This document shows, piece after piece, positions 14,215-21,647 of a stretch of DNA of 48,277 nucleotides. Position 1 is the stretch's first letter. Each line of letters begins with the position of its first letter. Both the position numbers and the translations under genes were made by a program. The stretch is taken from contig JAQYIU010000052.1 of the NCBI GenBank assembly GCA_028721415.1, positions 1-48,277 on the forward strand, written 5' to 3'. The notes under the pieces are model-generated. The model was given only the letters and a program-made list of their open reading frames with translations. It had not been told where the DNA came from and made no database searches. This stretch comes from Lachnospiraceae bacterium. GTDB taxonomy: Bacteria; Bacillota; Clostridia; Lachnospirales; Lachnospiraceae.

Positions 14215-15186
14215 ATGGAAAAAAGAAAAAAGCGGCTTACTTTACTGGGAATAGCAGCTCTGTTGCTATTGATTGTCGGGTGTGTCGGGCTCTTGATTTT
14301 CAGTCGAAATCGAAATAAAGAAGGGGAGCCACAAAAAAGAATCGGTGCATTGTATATGACAATGAATAACCCTTATTTTGAGGTGATCAATGAACAGGTA
14401 AAAGCGGTGGTGAAAAATAATGGCGACGTGATGATAACCCGGGATTCTGCCATGGATGCTGAGATGCAGGATCGACAGATTGAAGAGCTGATTGAAGAAG
14501 GGGTAGATGCTCTTTTAATCAATGCAGTAGATTGGAAAAATATTGGTGACAGCCTTGACAAAGCGAAGAAAGCGGGTGTTCCGATCATAGCGGTTGATAC
14601 AGAAGTTTATGATGATGATCTGGTGGATGGAACAGTGATATCGGATAACTATCATGCAGGTGAACTCTGTGCGCAGAACCTGATGATGAAACGACAATCT
14701 GGTAAAATACTATTTCTGGTCCAGAATACGAACAAATCAGCTGTGGACCGGATCCAGGGATTTAAAGATACTTTGGCAGAGTCCGGATGGGAGTATGAAA
14801 ATGTCGGTGAGCTGGAATGTCTTGGTCAGTTGGAAGTAGCTCAGCCATTGGTGGAAGAAGTGCTTCAAAGCAGGCAGGATATCGATGTGGTGATGGCATT
14901 AAATGATCCCAGCGCTCTGGGAGCCATGGCAGCTCTCGATGCAGTGGGAATGTTGTCGGATGTACTGGTATACGGTGTGGATGGCACCCCGGAGGCAAAA
15001 ACCATGATCTCCGAGCAGAAGATGACTGCAACCGCAGCCCAGTCTCCAATGAAAACCGGGGCTACAGTTGCTAGTATGCTTTATGATCTTCTTGATAAAA
15101 AGAAAATTGACAAAAAAACGGTTTTGCCGGTCACCCTCATCACCGAAGACAATATAGAGCAGTTTAGTTTGAACGGATGGGAGTAA
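14215..15186 (+). CDS. Sugar-type substrate-binding protein (type I periplasmic-binding fold), membrane-anchored
   Basis: A 323-residue protein of the RbsB/Peripla_BP_4 class that binds pentoses, hexoses or autoinducer-like sugars outside the membrane. A basic start and one hydrophobic helix (8-29) are followed by the binding domain (IGALYMTMNNPYFEVI; ligand-loop DVVMALNDPSALGAMAAL; VYGVDGTPEA). IVGC (20-23) loosely fits a lipobox, but hydrophobic residues continue past the Cys, so either a lipoprotein or an uncleaved anchor is possible. AGAGGA precedes the ATG; a TATAAT at 14188-14193 is the likely -10. No permease or ATPase gene is nearby. The kinase gene follows after 9 bases, so a sensing role is more likely than uptake (inference). 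Confidence 0.85.
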   Translation: MEKRKKRLTLLGIAALLLLIVGCVGLLIFSRNRNKEGEPQKRIGALYMTMNNPYFEVINEQVKAVVKNNGDVMITRDSAMDAEMQDRQIEELIEEGVDALLINAVDWKNIGDSLDKAKKAGVPIIAVDTEVYDDDLVDGTVISDNYHAGELCAQNLMMKRQSGKILFLVQNTNKSAVDRIQGFKDTLAESGWEYENVGELECLGQLEVAQPLVEEVLQSRQDIDVVMALNDPSALGAMAALDAVGMLSDVLVYGVDGTPEAKTMISEQKMTATAAQSPMKTGATVASMLYDLLDKKKIDKKTVLPVTLITEDNIEQFSLNGWE

Positions 15187-15195
15187 GAAGCTGTT

Positions 15196-16548
15196 ATGAA
15201 AAAAGAAAAAAATATAACATCAGAATATTATCTGAAACTGTGTTTTTGGATGATGGGTGTCTTGAATTTTATGATTGTGATCTTCCTGACATTAACGATT
15301 GTTTTGACACAGTTCCGCATTGCCAGGTCGCAGAATGCCAGTGACTTTCTGGCGAAACTTATGGTGATTCCTGAAAAACCGGGAATGCGAATCATGATTG
15401 TGATGGGATGTTATTTACTAATCTGCCTTTCCATTTACATAAAAGGAAAGTTATCCGAGGATTTTTCGGGAGAACAGAAAAACGAATGGCTGCTTTTTTT
15501 GAATGTTTTTGAGATCATACTGGTCATATTACTCATGAGCACAATTGATATGGCTTATAATGGAATTATCTTTTTTGTGGTGGCAGAAATGATTACTCAT
15601 GTGGAGAAATACTGGAGTCGGCTGGCGGTTTTATTTGCCACATTTCTCTGCTATCTGGTCTGCAGCTATGACCTTGTCACCCTGCTGTTTCCCATGAATT
15701 CTTTTGAAATCTGGGTTTCTTTTTACAGTTATAATACAGAGCGATATTTTCTGGGAATGCGAACTGCCTGCAATGTGGCAAGTCTTGTTCTATTTCTGAT
15801 CTATATTGTAATTTTGCTGGTGGAAGACCGAAAAGAAAATGAGAGGATCAAGAGTCTGAACGATCAGCTTCAGAAAGTAAATCAGCAACTTCATGAATAT
15901 GCAGAAGAAAAAGAACTGATGGGAGAGACCAGAGAACGAAATCGTCTTGCCAGAGAGATTCACGATACCTTAGGTCATATCCTGACCGGAATTTCTGTAG
16001 GAATTGATGCGGTTATGGTATTGATGGATGCCTCCCCGGAAGCGGCGAAACAGCAGCTGGAAACCATTGGTGGAATTGCCAGAAGGGGATTGAATGATGT
16101 GCGTCGTTCTGTTCGCAAGTTAAAGCCGGATGCTTTGGAACGAATGTCTCTGGAAAATGCCATTCACCAGATGATCGAGGAAATGTCCAAAGGAACCAAC
16201 ACAAAAATATACTTTGTTTCTTACATAGATAAACTTAGATTTGAAGCGGACGAAGAAGAAACGCTTTACCGTATCATTCAGGAAAGTACTACCAATGCCA
16301 TTCGACACGGAAAAGCAACGGAAATCTGGATTCGCATCAGCGAGAAAAATGAAGAGCTTATTGTTATGATCAGTGACAATGGGGTGGGGTGCAGTGAAAT
16401 TACCGAAGGTTTTGGCCTGAAGCATATGAGAGAGCGAGTAGAGCTTCTTAACGGAACTTTGTTCTGTGAGAGTATGTGCGGATTTACTGTGATCGTGAAA
16501 ATACCAATTCGAAACAGTGAGAGAAAAGGAGGAGAGGAAGATGATTAA
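15196..16548 (+). CDS. NarL-type sensor histidine kinase with multi-helix membrane domain
   Basis: A 450-residue kinase. The first 210 residues hold five or six membrane helices (about 15-39, 64-83, 99-116, 121-135, 142-168, 188-209) with only short loops, so the protein has little ligand-binding domain of its own. A coiled coil (about 212-245) leads to the HisKA_3 box REIHDTLGH with H256 as the phosphorylated residue. The HATPase domain carries the N box around IQESTTNAIRHG and the G box DNGVGC...EGFGLKHMRERV. It is flanked by the two binding-protein genes and overlaps the regulator gene by 8 bases. The lack of an external domain fits a partner-binding protein acting as input. Confidence 0.9.
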   Translation: MKKEKNITSEYYLKLCFWMMGVLNFMIVIFLTLTIVLTQFRIARSQNASDFLAKLMVIPEKPGMRIMIVMGCYLLICLSIYIKGKLSEDFSGEQKNEWLLFLNVFEIILVILLMSTIDMAYNGIIFFVVAEMITHVEKYWSRLAVLFATFLCYLVCSYDLVTLLFPMNSFEIWVSFYSYNTERYFLGMRTACNVASLVLFLIYIVILLVEDRKENERIKSLNDQLQKVNQQLHEYAEEKELMGETRERNRLAREIHDTLGHILTGISVGIDAVMVLMDASPEAAKQQLETIGGIARRGLNDVRRSVRKLKPDALERMSLENAIHQMIEEMSKGTNTKIYFVSYIDKLRFEADEEETLYRIIQESTTNAIRHGKATEIWIRISEKNEELIVMISDNGVGCSEITEGFGLKHMRERVELLNGTLFCESMCGFTVIVKIPIRNSERKGGEEDD

Positions 16549-17209
16549 AGTATTGATAGCAGATGATCAGGAACTGATCAGAGAAAGTCTGGGAATTGTT
16601 CTGGGGGCCAACTCTGATATGGAAGTGATCGGGATGGCGTCTGACGGACAGGAAGTAATTTCCATGATCAAAAAACAAAAACCGGATGTCATTTTAATGG
16701 ATATCCGTATGCCCGGAATGGATGGTGTGGAGTGTACCCGTATTGTGAAAGAAAAATATCCGGACATTTATATTATTATTTTAACAACCTTTGATGATGA
16801 TGAATATGTTTTTGGAGCACTGAAATATGGTGCCAGTGGCTATTTGCTGAAAGGGATTTCCATGAAAGACCTGGCTTCCTCTATCCGTACCGTGATCAGC
16901 GGAAGAGCAATGATCAATCCGGAAATCACAGATAAAGTGGTAAAACTGTTCAATAAGATGGCAAAAAGTAATTATTCCATTCAGGTAGAAGAAAAGCAGA
17001 CAGAAGATCTGACGAAAACGGAATGGAAGGTAATTCAGAAAATAGGCTGCGGTTTATCGAATAAAGAAATTTCCTCCGATCTGGCACTGTCGGAAGGAAC
17101 GGTGCGGAATTATTTAAGTTCCATTTTATCAAAGCTTGATCTGAGAGACCGGACGCAGCTGGCCATCTGGGCGGTACAGACGGGAACAGTCAACAGAATC
17201 TTTGATTAG
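16541..17209 (+). CDS. NarL/FixJ-family response regulator
   Basis: A 222-residue transcription regulator paired with the kinase before it. The receiver domain has the acidic pair D8/D9, phospho-acceptor D54 (ILMDIRMPGMDG), the Thr/Ser position in LTTFDD and the conserved Lys in LLKG. The C-terminal LuxR-type helix-turn-helix spans about 157-215 (LTKTEWKVIQKIGCGLSNKE, then GTVRNYLSSILSKL). ATG 16541 overlaps the kinase stop and follows AAAGGAGGAG, so translation is coupled. The frame is open a further 24 bases upstream, but those codons are the kinase tail in another frame. Targets are unknown; the palindrome before fruK (18643-18667) is a candidate site. Confidence 0.92.
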   Translation: MIKVLIADDQELIRESLGIVLGANSDMEVIGMASDGQEVISMIKKQKPDVILMDIRMPGMDGVECTRIVKEKYPDIYIIILTTFDDDEYVFGALKYGASGYLLKGISMKDLASSIRTVISGRAMINPEITDKVVKLFNKMAKSNYSIQVEEKQTEDLTKTEWKVIQKIGCGLSNKEISSDLALSEGTVRNYLSSILSKLDLRDRTQLAIWAVQTGTVNRIFD

Positions 17210-17221
17210 GAGTTATCCGTG

Positions 17222-18532
17222 ATGAAAAAAGAATTGAAAATGAAAGTGCTTTTCTTTGGAATCCTTTTTGCGGTTCTTGTGGGAATTCTGCTGTTTTATT
17301 ACAGGCCGGGTAATTCCGTTTTAAAAGTAGGGATTTTTTACGGAAGTAACTGGGAGGTACCGGGAACCGTTCATTATGATATTTTTGATCAGGCGATAGA
17401 AAAGTATAAGAAGGAATACGGAAATATTGAAATTGAATACGAAGAGGGAATTCCTTCTAAGGATTATTCGGAGTGGCTTGCCGGTAAAATTCTAGAAGGA
17501 GATGAGCCGGATGTCTATCTGGTGATGGATGAAGATTTTTATTCTCTGGTATCTGTGGGAGCTTTGAAAAATCTTGATCTGCTTTTGTCGGACGATTCGG
17601 AAGCGGATTGTAACCTTTTTTATCAATCAGCTTGTCAGGCAGGAGAATATCAGGGGAAACAGTATGCTCTTCCTATGGAATGTAATCCGACACTGATGTT
17701 TGTCAATAAGACATTGTTGAAAAAAGAGGGAATTGAAGTACCAGATCATGATTGGACCTGGGATGATTTTTATGAAATTTGCAAAGAGGTTACAAAAGAC
17801 AGTGATGGAGACGGACGTATCGATCAATTTGGATATTGTGATTACACCTGGATTCAGGCAGTCTATTCTAACGGAATCCGCCCTTTCAATGAAGATGGAA
17901 CAGAATCTTATTTTACCGATGAGCGCTTTATCGAATCCATTCAGTTTGTGAAAAAATTGCAGCAGATTAATGATAATTACCTGGTGTCTTCGAATGATTT
18001 TGACCTTGGGAAGGTAGTGTTTCGCCCATTGAGTTTTTCTGATTATCGGACATATATGCCGTATCCATGGCGAATCAAAAAATACTCGGATTTTGAATGG
18101 AATTGTATCCCGATGCCATCAGGCCCGGAAGGAGATAACATTTCTTCCATGGATGTGCTGATGGCTGGGATCAGTGCCCGAACGACAAAAACCAGAGAAG
18201 CGTGGCAATTTCTTAAAATGTTGACCATGGACGAAGAAATTCAGAGCCTGGTTTACGCAGACACTTCAGGAGCTTCCGCTCTGAAAGCCGTCTCTACTTC
18301 TCAGAAAACGATGGAACTCCTGAATAAAGATACGCCGGGCGGACAAGATATTGATATGTCACTGCTTGATCAGACTATCGAACAGGCAGTGATACCGGAA
18401 AAATTCAAAACCTACCATGAGGTCTACGAAAAAGCAGATAATGATTTATCAGCACTGCTCATGTCCGAGGACGATATCAGCACATCCATGTTCAATCTCA
18501 AAAACGAAATAGATAAAATGATTCAACCATAA
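17222..18532 (+). CDS. Family 1 extracellular solute-binding protein, membrane-anchored
   Basis: A 436-residue MalE-like (type II fold) binding protein. An N-terminal hydrophobic helix (about 9-27) contains no cysteine, so there is no lipobox and the protein is probably held by an uncleaved anchor. The mature part shows the family pattern: KVGIFYGSNWEVPG, YSEWLAGKILEGDEPDVYLVMDEDF, NPTLMFVNKTLLKKEGIEVP and the hinge segment WTWDDFYEICKEVT. GTG (17219) and ATG (17222) are adjacent; ATG is taken, 9 bases after AGGAG. It starts 12 bases after the regulator gene and lacks any permease genes. Likely the second sensory subunit of the same unit (inference), or an orphan transport component. Confidence 0.85.
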   Translation: MKKELKMKVLFFGILFAVLVGILLFYYRPGNSVLKVGIFYGSNWEVPGTVHYDIFDQAIEKYKKEYGNIEIEYEEGIPSKDYSEWLAGKILEGDEPDVYLVMDEDFYSLVSVGALKNLDLLLSDDSEADCNLFYQSACQAGEYQGKQYALPMECNPTLMFVNKTLLKKEGIEVPDHDWTWDDFYEICKEVTKDSDGDGRIDQFGYCDYTWIQAVYSNGIRPFNEDGTESYFTDERFIESIQFVKKLQQINDNYLVSSNDFDLGKVVFRPLSFSDYRTYMPYPWRIKKYSDFEWNCIPMPSGPEGDNISSMDVLMAGISARTTKTREAWQFLKMLTMDEEIQSLVYADTSGASALKAVSTSQKTMELLNKDTPGGQDIDMSLLDQTIEQAVIPEKFKTYHEVYEKADNDLSALLMSEDDISTSMFNLKNEIDKMIQP

Positions 18533-18642
18533 GTCGGGCGTTCAAAATGAAGCGCAGCTCTTAAATATAATAATAAAGTAAGCGATTCTACGCATAATAC
18601 GGTATAAACTCTCTCTGCTATAGGGGAGGGCGGATTTATGAT

Positions 18643-18667
18643 ATTTGTCATATGGCATATGACAAAT
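18643..18667 (+). promoter_or_regulatory. Palindromic operator candidate upstream of fruK
   Basis: ATTTGTCATATG (18643-18654) and its exact reverse complement (18656-18667) flank a single G: a perfect 12-bp dyad. It lies about 120 bases before the fruK start and about 58 bases before a possible start site set by TTGAGT-17-TTAGAT (18678-18706). The spacing suits an activator. A second small dyad, TGCCGAT-AG-ATCGGCA (18741-18756), lies in the leader. Confidence 0.6.
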
Positions 18668-18784
18668 TTACAGGTAATTGAGTGACATTCGTTAGATGTT
18701 TTAGATAACAGACTTTGCTAATATATAGACACAACGAACGTGCCGATAGATCGGCAGTCGAATAGAGAGAGAAGGAGTGTTACA

Positions 18785-19696
18785 ATGATGATCTATACAG
18801 TGACATTTAATCCGGCGTTGGATTACATTGTGTTTTTGGATGAGATGAAGCTGGGAGATATCAATCGGGCAACAAGGGAGTCCATTTTTTATGGTGGAAA
18901 GGGAATCAATGTTTCCACAATATTAAATACTCTTGGTTTAGAAACAACCGCCCTGGGTTTCGTGGCAGGATTTACTGGGAAGGCCATTGAAGAAGGTCTG
19001 GCATCCATGGGAATGCGTACAGAGTTCATTCATTTACCGGAAGGAAATTCTCGCATTAACGTCAAGGTAAAACACGGTGATGAGACAGAAATTAACGGTC
19101 AGGGGCCGGTTATTACCGAAGAAGCCATTGAGGAATTGTTTGCCAAGCTGGATGCTTTGACCGAAGAAGATATTCTGATTTTGGCAGGAAGTATTCCAAA
19201 CACGTTACCGGAAGATATTTACGAGAAAATCCTTGCGAGACTGGAGAAAAAAGGAATCCGGATTGCAGTGGATGCGACAAAGGATTTGCTTTTAAATGTA
19301 TTGAAATATCACCCGTTTTTGATTAAACCGAATAATCATGAACTTGGGGAAATGTTCCATACTGCGTGTAAAACCAAAGAAGATATCGAGTACTATGCAA
19401 AAGAACTTCAGAAAATGGGAGCAAGAAATGTTCTGATTTCCATGGCAGGCGACGGTGCAATCTTGATCACCGAGGAGGGTGAGACCATTCAGATGGGTAC
19501 ACCAAAGGGTAAAGTGATTAATTCTGTGGGAGCAGGTGATTCCATGGTTGCGGGATTTGTGGCAGGTTACCTGAAAAATAACAGCTATGAAGAAGCCTTA
19601 AAAACCGGAACAGCAGCCGGTAGTGCCACTGCATTTTCTGAAGGATTGGCATCCATCGAAATGATTCAGGCAATGATGGAACAGATTGAAAAATAG
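18785..19696 (+). CDS. fruK: 1-phosphofructokinase
   Basis: A 303-residue PfkB-family kinase that converts fructose 1-phosphate, the product of the fructose PTS, to fructose 1,6-bisphosphate. Landmarks are VTFNPALDYIVF at the N-terminus, GGKGINVS (sugar-binding), KPNNHELGEMF and GAGDSMVAGF with the catalytic Asp. Frame-open codons continue upstream, but ATG 18785 (with ATG 18788 next) lies 7 bases after AGGAG and begins at the family's first strand. It is followed by fruA after 19 bases. Tagatose 6-phosphate kinase is the main alternative; the fructose PTS neighbour favours fruK. The usual fruR repressor gene is missing from this operon. Confidence 0.92.
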   Translation: MMIYTVTFNPALDYIVFLDEMKLGDINRATRESIFYGGKGINVSTILNTLGLETTALGFVAGFTGKAIEEGLASMGMRTEFIHLPEGNSRINVKVKHGDETEINGQGPVITEEAIEELFAKLDALTEEDILILAGSIPNTLPEDIYEKILARLEKKGIRIAVDATKDLLLNVLKYHPFLIKPNNHELGEMFHTACKTKEDIEYYAKELQKMGARNVLISMAGDGAILITEEGETIQMGTPKGKVINSVGAGDSMVAGFVAGYLKNNSYEEALKTGTAAGSATAFSEGLASIEMIQAMMEQIEK

Positions 19697-19715
19697 AGAA
19701 GAGAAGGAGCAGATT

Positions 19716-21647
19716 ATGAGAATTGTTGATTTACTGAAAAAAGAAGCGATTATTCTTAATGCAGATGTCAGCACAAAAGAAGAAATGCTGAATCTGCTGA
19801 TTGACCTTCATAAGAAAGCCGGAAATATTTCTGATACAGAGACTTTCAAAGAAGGAATCATGAAAAGAGAATCAGAAGGGCCGACCGCAATTGCCGATGG
19901 AATTTGTATTCCACATTCTAAGAATGAAGCGGTAAAAACTCCTGGTATTGCAGCAATCACAGTACCGGCTGGTGTGGATTGTGATGCTTTGGACGGACAA
20001 AATTCCGACCTGTTTTTCATGATTGCTGCACCGGCAACAGGTGCAGATGTTCATCTGGAGGCATTATCCAGATTATCCACCATCCTGATGGATGCAGAAT
20101 TCAGAAAAAAATTACTGACAGCAAAAGATATTGATGCTTTCTTAAATGCCATTGACGCAAAAGAAACAGAAAAATACGGTGCTGAAACAGAAACAACAGA
20201 AACGAAACCTGCGAAAACAGGTTACCGTGTTCTTGCTGTAACTGCTTGTCCGACAGGAATTGCTCATACCTATATGGCAGCAGAAGCACTGGAAGAAAAA
20301 GGAAAAGAACTGGGAATTCCGGTCAAAGCAGAAACCAATGGTTCCAGCGGTGCAAAAAATGTGCTGACAGACGAAGAAATCGCTGCCTGCGACGGTATCA
20401 TCATTGCGGCAGATAAAAATGTAGAAATGGCACGTTTTGATGGAAAACCATTATTAAAAGTAAAGGTTTCTGATGGTATCCATAAATCGCAGCAGTTAAT
20501 TGAGAAAATAGTCAATGGAGAAGCTCCGGTTTATCATCATAAAGGAGCAACAGGCGCATCTTCTGAAGAGGAAGGAGAAGGCCTTGGACACCAGATTTAC
20601 AAACATCTGATGAATGGTGTATCCCATATGCTGCCATTCGTAATCGGTGGCGGTATCCTCATTGCTATTGCGTTTTTATTAGATGATTACAGTATTGACC
20701 CGAGCAACTTTGGTATGAACACACCTCTTGCAGCTTTCTTCAAAACTGCCGGTGGTGTCGCATTTAACTTCATGCTTCCAATCCTTGCGGGATACATTGC
20801 CATGAGTATTGCCGACCGTCCAGGTCTGATGGTTGGTTTCGTAGGCGGATATGTGGCAAGTTGCGGAACAACATTTGCATCCTGTTTTGACTCCAGTATC
20901 TCACCGATTTCCGGTGGATTTATCGGAGCTTTATTCGCAGGTTTCATCGCAGGTTACCTGGTACTGTTCTTAAAGAAACTTACTGAAAAATTACCTGCAG
21001 CTATGGATGGTTTAAGACCAATGCTTATTTATCCGGTGGTCGGTCTGCTGGGAATCAGCGTGATCATGTTTGCCATCAACCCATTTTTCTCCTGGTTAAA
21101 CCAGTTATTATATAATGCCCTGGAATCCCTGGGTGGAGCAAACTCCATCATCCTGGGTATCATCGTAGCCGGAATGATGTCCATCGACATGGGTGGCCCA
21201 TTTAACAAAGCAGCTTATGTATTTGGTACTGCAGCTCTTGGTTCTCAGACAGAAAGCGGATATATGATTATGGCAGCCGTTATGGTTGGCGGCATGGTAC
21301 CTCCGATTGCCATTGCAATCTCCTCCTGGCTCTTTAAAAATAAATTTACAGATAACGACCGTAAAGCAGCACCGGTAAATGCTATCATGGGACTTTGCTT
21401 CATCTCCGAAGCAGCTATCCCTTACGCAGCGGGAGATCCTCTTCATGTTATCCCATCCTGTGTTGCCGGTTCTTCAGTAGCCGGAGCGTTATCCATGGCC
21501 TTCCAGTGTACTTTAATGGCACCTCACGGTGGAGTATTCGTATTCCCTGTTGTAGGAAATCCATTCATGTATATTATCTCCTTACTGGTTGGATCCGTTG
21601 TAGGCGCCGTATTGCTGGGTATTCTCAGAAAACCGGCTGCAAAATAA
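19716..21647 (+). CDS. fruA: PTS fructose transporter subunit EIIABC
   Basis: A 643-residue permease that takes up fructose and phosphorylates it at C1. Order: EIIA domain (1-150) with active His67 in GICIPHSKN; linker; EIIB domain with active Cys178 in VTACPTGIAHTYMAAEAL; EIIC membrane domain (about 285-640) with many helices and the substrate loop region GGPFNKAAYVFG. Phosphate must come from a His15-bearing HPr, which the HPr-like protein at 12802 cannot supply. ATG follows AAGGAG by 6 bases. Translation is probably linked to fruK. Mannose-type specificity cannot be excluded but the operon favours fructose. Confidence 0.93.
   Translation: MRIVDLLKKEAIILNADVSTKEEMLNLLIDLHKKAGNISDTETFKEGIMKRESEGPTAIADGICIPHSKNEAVKTPGIAAITVPAGVDCDALDGQNSDLFFMIAAPATGADVHLEALSRLSTILMDAEFRKKLLTAKDIDAFLNAIDAKETEKYGAETETTETKPAKTGYRVLAVTACPTGIAHTYMAAEALEEKGKELGIPVKAETNGSSGAKNVLTDEEIAACDGIIIAADKNVEMARFDGKPLLKVKVSDGIHKSQQLIEKIVNGEAPVYHHKGATGASSEEEGEGLGHQIYKHLMNGVSHMLPFVIGGGILIAIAFLLDDYSIDPSNFGMNTPLAAFFKTAGGVAFNFMLPILAGYIAMSIADRPGLMVGFVGGYVASCGTTFASCFDSSISPISGGFIGALFAGFIAGYLVLFLKKLTEKLPAAMDGLRPMLIYPVVGLLGISVIMFAINPFFSWLNQLLYNALESLGGANSIILGIIVAGMMSIDMGGPFNKAAYVFGTAALGSQTESGYMIMAAVMVGGMVPPIAIAISSWLFKNKFTDNDRKAAPVNAIMGLCFISEAAIPYAAGDPLHVIPSCVAGSSVAGALSMAFQCTLMAPHGGVFVFPVVGNPFMYIISLLVGSVVGAVLLGILRKPAAK

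Follow-up and report, generated by a model that had tools for sequence, protein, structure and literature searches.

What the four genes at positions 14215 to 18532 of a Lachnospiraceae contig sense, and which genes they control, is the question raised by this locus. The window, meaning the whole stretch analysed, comprises 48,277 nucleotides of the forward strand of contig JAQYIU010000052.1 (assembly GCA_028721415.1), and in it a histidine kinase and a response regulator are encoded between two sugar-binding proteins, BP1 and BP2, upstream of the fructose genes fruKA. The original prediction had described a sensory unit whose single kinase would relay signals from two binding proteins with different folds, with fruKA as the first candidate target, and had regarded only partial parallels such as XylFII-LytS as known. 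The first two points were supported by the present analysis, the target by conserved promoter elements; the third was not, as LevQRST of Streptococcus mutans has the same composition and order (PMC3043104). Judged by homology, the cassette is a LevQRST-type four-component system, a kind already known. Our best reading, with a probability of about 0.83, is that it is a fructose-type receptor that would activate fruKA.

Homology of the cassette with LevQRST

In S. mutans, the genes levTSRQ, which encode a kinase-regulator pair between two sugar-binding proteins, lie upstream of levDEFG; fructose or mannose is the inducer, and the promoters bound by LevR include those of levD and fruA (PMC3043104). 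The full response requires both binding proteins, and similar operons were given for streptococci, lactobacilli, Clostridium acetobutylicum, and Dorea longicatena (PMC3043104). The order T-S-R-Q, with two sugar-binding proteins of the ATP-binding cassette (ABC) transporter type around a two-component pair, was found in the window and likewise in a second locus, L104, whose layout ssb-BP1-HK-RR-BP2-IIA-IIB-IIC-IID (HK, histidine kinase; RR, response regulator) is that given for S. mutans. All four window proteins were homologous to those of L104 over nearly their full length, with identities of 37.8% over 325 amino acids for BP1, 34.6% over 437 for the kinase, and 39.6% over 434 for BP2 (that is, 35-40%), against 62.9% over 221 (63%) for the regulator. 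We took L104 to be streptococcal from the ssb gene beside BP1, the levDEFG-type genes after BP2, and two further comparisons. A protein near its cassette matched SPRM200_0309, the protein of PDB entry 7f00, with a score of 1000 bits; the latter is presumably pneumococcal. Published residue numbers of LevQ fitted L104 BP2 at four of seven positions (offset -4) and those of LevS fitted the kinase at three of four (offset -3), while no fit of three or more was obtained for LevT on L104 BP1.

In the window, all four genes lie on the forward strand. BP1 (14215..15186; PF13407, E = 5.9e-49) is a LevT-type type I sugar-binding protein with an RbsB-like pocket; it is followed by a LevS-type kinase with HisKA_3 and HATPase_c domains (15196..16548), a LevR-type NarL/LuxR response regulator with Response_reg and GerE domains (16541..17209), and BP2, a LevQ-type type II sugar-binding protein (17219..18532; SBP_bac_1, E = 8.8e-24). 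These domain matches agreed with the gene order predicted originally, as did the intergenic gaps of 9, -8, and 12 bases, the last being 9 or 12 according to whether BP2 starts at GTG 17219 or ATG 17222. In a hydropathy plot the kinase had about five transmembrane segments (residues 19-37, 64-82, 99-125 with two overlapping peaks, 143-161, and 191-209), and a domain-family scan of the kinase gave no match to an external sensor domain. Among NCBIfam models the kinase half scored best with UhpB (4e-36), below the cut-off of that model. Both binding proteins are predicted to be anchored by their N-termini. The view that neither has a convincing lipobox held only in part: BP1 formally has an IVGC string at residues 20-23 within a longer hydrophobic stretch, a type of string that was present in the relative L035 and missing from L047 and L036. 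By hydropathy and the lipobox search, the anchoring and the segment count resemble those of S. mutans, in which LevQ and LevT are membrane-associated and LevS has up to five transmembrane domains (PMC3043104). Mutants of S. mutans levS cluster around TM4-TM5 (PMC3043104).

Compared with better-known arrangements, the cassette shares with XylFII-LytS a sensor kinase fed by a binding protein, and with UhpB/UhpC and TorT/TorS a kinase that reads its solute through a separate partner. XylFII-LytS, however, has a single binding protein and a kinase of another class; UhpC is a transporter homologue, and TorT is a single binding protein.

Conservation of the cassette and its uptake operons

Relatives of the kinase at E <= 1e-60 were found in 25 of 397 genomes of the same family, and a kinase profile at E <= 1e-75 gave matches in 9 of 391 class-level and 10 of 398 phylum-level genomes, the window's own genome (G000) being counted each time. 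Together with the window, 26 loci from the family search, two from named assemblies, and 16 from other families gave 45 kinase loci. All four genes stood in the window's order in 34 of them, which is beyond chance. The 11 loci lacking the full order included four cut by contig ends (L044, L045, L080, L086), L036 with broken frames, L101, whose regulator was missed by the gene caller, and five (L048, L083, L085, L087, L098) with kinase-regulator-BP2 near CUT2 transporters and no BP1 before the kinase. In some of these five, the binding protein of the transporter may double as sensor.

An uptake operon, namely a mannose-type phosphotransferase system (PTS), a CUT2 ABC importer, or fruKA, adjoined the cassette in 38 of the 45 loci. 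By type, the neighbours were CUT2 ABC genes in 23 loci, mannose-family PTS genes in 13, fruKA in two, and none called in six, plus L035, whose contig ends within a fruK-type promoter. The types of L035 and L084 (one of the 13 PTS loci) were set by hand; of loci typed as having none, L061 contained a CUT2 binding protein and ATPase, and L101 had PTS genes with an exact dyad further down. The window's genome held a second complete cassette (L046, G000:C76:1885-6181), followed by mannose-type PTS genes IIA-IIB-IIC and cut by the contig end, so that two LevQRST-type systems coexist there. Plasmid searches returned 30 records with partial kinase matches, each covering less than 80% of the query, and no match to BP2.

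In the kinase tree (42 of the 45 loci, three with short kinases being left out; midpoint-rooted), the window, L035, and L047 formed one fully supported group, which fell on a branch (support 99/98) with all 13 PTS-associated rows, including L104, two CUT2-associated rows, and two without called neighbours; on the other side, 21 of 22 rows were CUT2-associated. Across 33 complete loci the mean pairwise identity was 66% for the regulator, with 72% in its helix-turn-helix, 41% for BP1, 44% for BP2, and 39% for the kinase, in which the membrane half (26%) differed from the kinase half (53%). A constant regulator with a fast-changing membrane part fits a constant promoter code combined with varied sensing.

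The frequency of CUT2 genes bears on the idea that BP1 and BP2 serve ABC importers encoded elsewhere and that the position of the two-component pair between them has some other cause. The original prediction had counted permease and ATPase genes in the operons of relatives as evidence against a sensory unit. Such genes do occur (the 23 CUT2-associated loci), and both proteins belong to ABC binding-protein families; yet in 17 of these 23 loci the kinase was preceded by BP1 and another binding protein was present as well, so that BP1 is not simply that of the transporter. A transport-lipoprotein-like lipobox string, found within the first 45 residues of 10 of 28 BP1 examined, is in keeping with importers, and some of these relatives' BP1 may be lipoproteins; no such string was seen in 26 of 27 BP2, three of which (L039, L040, L054) had their N-termini out of sight, by a search that detected it in no more than 9 of 14 binding proteins of transporters. 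A quick tree placed 18 of the 25 counted transporter binding proteins on a single, fully supported branch that contained no sensor BP1, and among the other seven that of L036 is really a sensor. Moreover, the 13 cassettes beside PTS operons adjoin systems that require no binding protein, and LevQ and LevT signal in S. mutans (PMC3043104). Service to distant importers is thus very improbable, and we retain the reading of the cassette as a receptor.

Promoter elements upstream of fruKA

Directly downstream of the cassette, 252 bases after the end of BP2, lies fruK (18785..19696, forward strand; 1-phosphofructokinase, TIGR03828, E = 1.7e-105, over the cut-off), followed on the same strand by fruA (19716..21647; fructose PTS EIIABC with PTS_EIIA_2, PTS_IIB, and PTS_EIIC domains; TIGR01427, E = 4.6e-113). 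Both are predicted targets. As in S. mutans, a fructose-related uptake operon is directly downstream, but it is fruKA in place of levDEFG, and no fructanase target was identified in the window. No permease, ATPase, or fruR gene was present within 14215-21647, as predicted originally, and the unit is thus not an ABC transporter operon.

The region between BP2 and fruK contained two blocks common to the window, genome G319, and L035. The first, a predicted upstream operator region (18639..18671, forward strand, as are all elements described here; aligned in G319 and L035), comprised TGATATTTGTCA (18639-18650), a wide dyad TGTCATAT-GGC-ATATGACA (18646-18664), and a half-site TGACAAATTTAC (18660-18671). 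The second was a predicted downstream operator TGACATTCGTTAGATGT (18683..18699), exactly 23 bp after the half-site, which overlaps the -35 position and is followed after 19 bp by a predicted -10 of fruKA, TAATAT (18719..18724). When the dyad was searched as TGTCATAT-N3/4-ATATGACA, one copy was found in G000 and one in G319, both at fruK. The pattern of the downstream operator, TGACATYCRTYAGATGT, occurred in three of 397 family genomes, twice in same-genus fruK promoters; the third match (G386) lay inside a coding frame, presumably galE-like, and was rejected as chance.

Both elements recurred upstream of the uptake operons of other cassettes, and the resulting promoter code consists of the dyad TKACAWWTGTMA, 11 bp, TKACAN6AGRTGT, 19 bp, and the -10. 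Its dyad would lie at about -71 to -60, in agreement with a dyad at -72 to -59 of S. mutans fruA that was termed the likely LevR target (PMC9241797).

Association of the promoter code with the cassette

For the family loci, the window and 19 of 28 other loci gave a target region (at least 60 bases upstream of FruK, IIAman, or cut2SBP), L039 and L040 being near copies; regions of cut2ATP, PfkB, LyxI, IIBman, and cassette BP1 were excluded from both sides. The exact dyad was present in 17 of 20 uptake regions and in 3 of 154 other intergenic regions, and the second site with at most one mismatch in 13 of 20 and 0 of 154, respectively. Excluded regions inspected later showed an exact dyad in L048, L061, and L063 and both sites with at most one mismatch in L052 and L056.

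An independent test was made with the family-locus consensus fixed and regions chosen mechanically, and 16 non-family loci gave 9 uptake regions and 80 controls. With at most one mismatch, the dyad was found in 8 of 9 uptake regions and 5 of 80 controls (p = 1.6e-7), and the exact dyad in 3 of 9 and 1 of 80 (p = 0.0028). The result for the second site was weaker: 3 of 9 against 1 of 80 with at most one mismatch (p = 0.0028), the copy in one of the three (L104) not being at the canonical spacing, and 4 of 9 against 12 of 80 with at most two (p = 0.05). The mechanical rule gave no region for L082, L084, L087, L099, L100, L101, and L103; inspection by hand found a one-mismatch dyad in L099 and none in the stretches inspected of L100 and L103. 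Against a 65-bp template, 19 family regions had a mean of 5.3 mismatches, compared with 12.9 in 140 controls, and 11 non-family regions a mean of 7.6, compared with 13.4 in 74 controls; in 200 mononucleotide shuffles the mean never fell below 11.27. When the template was fitted to the levD-type promoter of L104 by its second site and both steps (23 and 19 bp), the total was 8 mismatches, no better than the best control.

Several points weigh against the proposed control of fruKA. Visual inspection of the family loci gave the consensus, and p-values for those loci are therefore circular. The spacing of the second site, whose end was exactly 19 bp from the best -10 in 17 of the 26 promoters that were scored, was taken from a set partly made up of non-family promoters; L065 and L085, in which the second site was too poor, and L051, which had no room, were left out, and in L083 and L104 the script picked the wrong second-site copy. 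Scored on the full 65-bp template, no more than 13 of 19 family regions and four of 11 non-family regions (L082-L085) did better than every control; several of these 11 were chosen after their sequence had been read, and L086, L087, L099, L100, and L103 were left out. L097, L101, and L104, with 8-9 mismatches, overlapped the best controls (7-10), and L080, L081, L098, and L102, with 10-14, misfitted the template. The window itself has only a half-site at the canonical -23 position, its fuller dyad lying about 21 bp further up. Finally, the close relative L036 (7112-11940) keeps the cassette, yet neither fruKA nor the promoter elements adjoin it; its split kinase frames and early stop in BP2, at an assembly coverage of 6.8, reflect either decay or assembly errors.

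L036 also suits a second alternative, that the cassette senses sugar while some other regulator, such as a global factor or a DeoR-type FruR encoded at a distance, reads the elements before fruK. Five DeoR-type matches were found in G000, none on the window's contig. Several observations argue the other way. FruK matches occurred in 72 of 130 family genomes, and in the 29 loci examined of 75 such matches outside the window's genome, all 29 without an adjoining cassette, neither the exact dyad nor the second site with at most one mismatch was found within 1.2-1.5 kb upstream; a one-mismatch dyad was present in 2 of the 29 (L119, L125). At least 12 of these 29 fruK genes, for which 22 same-strand upstream genes were scanned, had a DeoR-type gene directly upstream, the place taken by the cassette in the window's genus. 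The elements accompany the cassette across three kinds of uptake operon, and the strong conservation of the regulator's helix-turn-helix is what a conserved site would need. We consider control of fruKA by another regulator improbable, and activation by the cassette the better explanation.

Sugar pocket and roles of the two binding proteins

In BP1, residues N52, D128, R179, N230, D256, and Q276 were kept in 37 of 37 sensor BP1. They are the alignment equivalents of RbsB N13, D89, R141, N190, D215, and Q235, which we take to be its sugar-contact residues. The equivalent of RbsB R90 was T in 27 of 37 sensors and otherwise S or A, and it was also T in 19 of the 25 counted transporter binding proteins, one of which (that of L036) is the sensor noted above. 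Sensors and transporters thus share a pocket unlike that of RbsB, as expected if both bind the same sugar. Genes for ketose-bisphosphate aldolase, PfkB kinases, and D-lyxose isomerase near cassettes, beside CUT2 ABC genes, point to a ketohexose, and fructose would be the simplest common ligand. Together with fruKA and the PTS genes, which belong to the mannose/fructose/sorbose family, they make the neighbourhood of the cassettes fructose-type.

Within such a unit, only one binding protein might be a genuine receptor, its partner acting as an inhibitor or scaffold. Loss of LevQ abolishes the S. mutans response, while loss of LevT only reduces it (PMC3043104), and the five loci without BP1 before the kinase agree with an unequal division of roles; the full conservation of the BP1 pocket speaks against it. 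We regard a single receptor as less likely than not.

Other observations at the cassette loci

The dyad occurred in exact form, unaccompanied by a good downstream site, upstream of PfkB genes in L054, L062, and L063 and upstream of uvrB in L103; these genes are possible further regulon members. Exact dyads also stood upstream of the cassette BP1 in L037 and L052, where they may indicate self-regulation in some relatives; the window has none at that place (two mismatches). Just upstream of the window's cassette lies an HPr gene (PF00381, 12802-13059). Seryl-phosphorylated HPr takes part in controlling LevR-dependent genes in S. mutans (PMC3043104).

Proposed mechanism and significance

The analysis directly supports the order and homology of the genes, the conserved pocket of BP1, and promoter elements that are associated with the cassette. 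On this basis, we propose that the N-termini of BP1 and BP2 tether them to the membrane with their pockets facing outwards, and that they bind an external sugar, which would most likely be fructose or a closely related hexose, for example mannose. The LevS-type kinase lacks a sensor domain of its own, and sugar binding would change how BP1 and BP2 contact its transmembrane bundle. Phosphorylation of the LevR-type regulator by the kinase would follow, and the regulator would then bind upstream of fruK, at the dyad and at the site overlapping the -35, and activate fruKA, so that the fructose PTS and 1-phosphofructokinase would be made when fructose is outside the cell.

More broadly, LevQRST is probably a plug-in fructose-type receptor across Bacillota, in which the regulator and the promoter code (a dyad near -71 to -60, a second site over the -35, and 19 bp to the -10) are fixed and the uptake system is swapped: a mannose-type PTS, a CUT2 ABC importer, or, in the window's genus, fruKA, where the cassette would replace the usual DeoR-type FruR. 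In the titles and abstract openings returned by searches of open-licence literature, LevQRST papers among them, there was no mention of this promoter code or of fruKA or CUT2 neighbours of LevQRST; relative to these, the code common to the cassettes and the fruKA and CUT2 partners are new. One kind of pocket occurs in neighbouring binding proteins for signalling and for transport, and the natural variants with and without BP1 before the kinase make the role of each binding protein testable. A sensor studied mainly in an oral streptococcus would thus be a module present in several families and classes, with a concrete promoter code by which its targets may be predicted.

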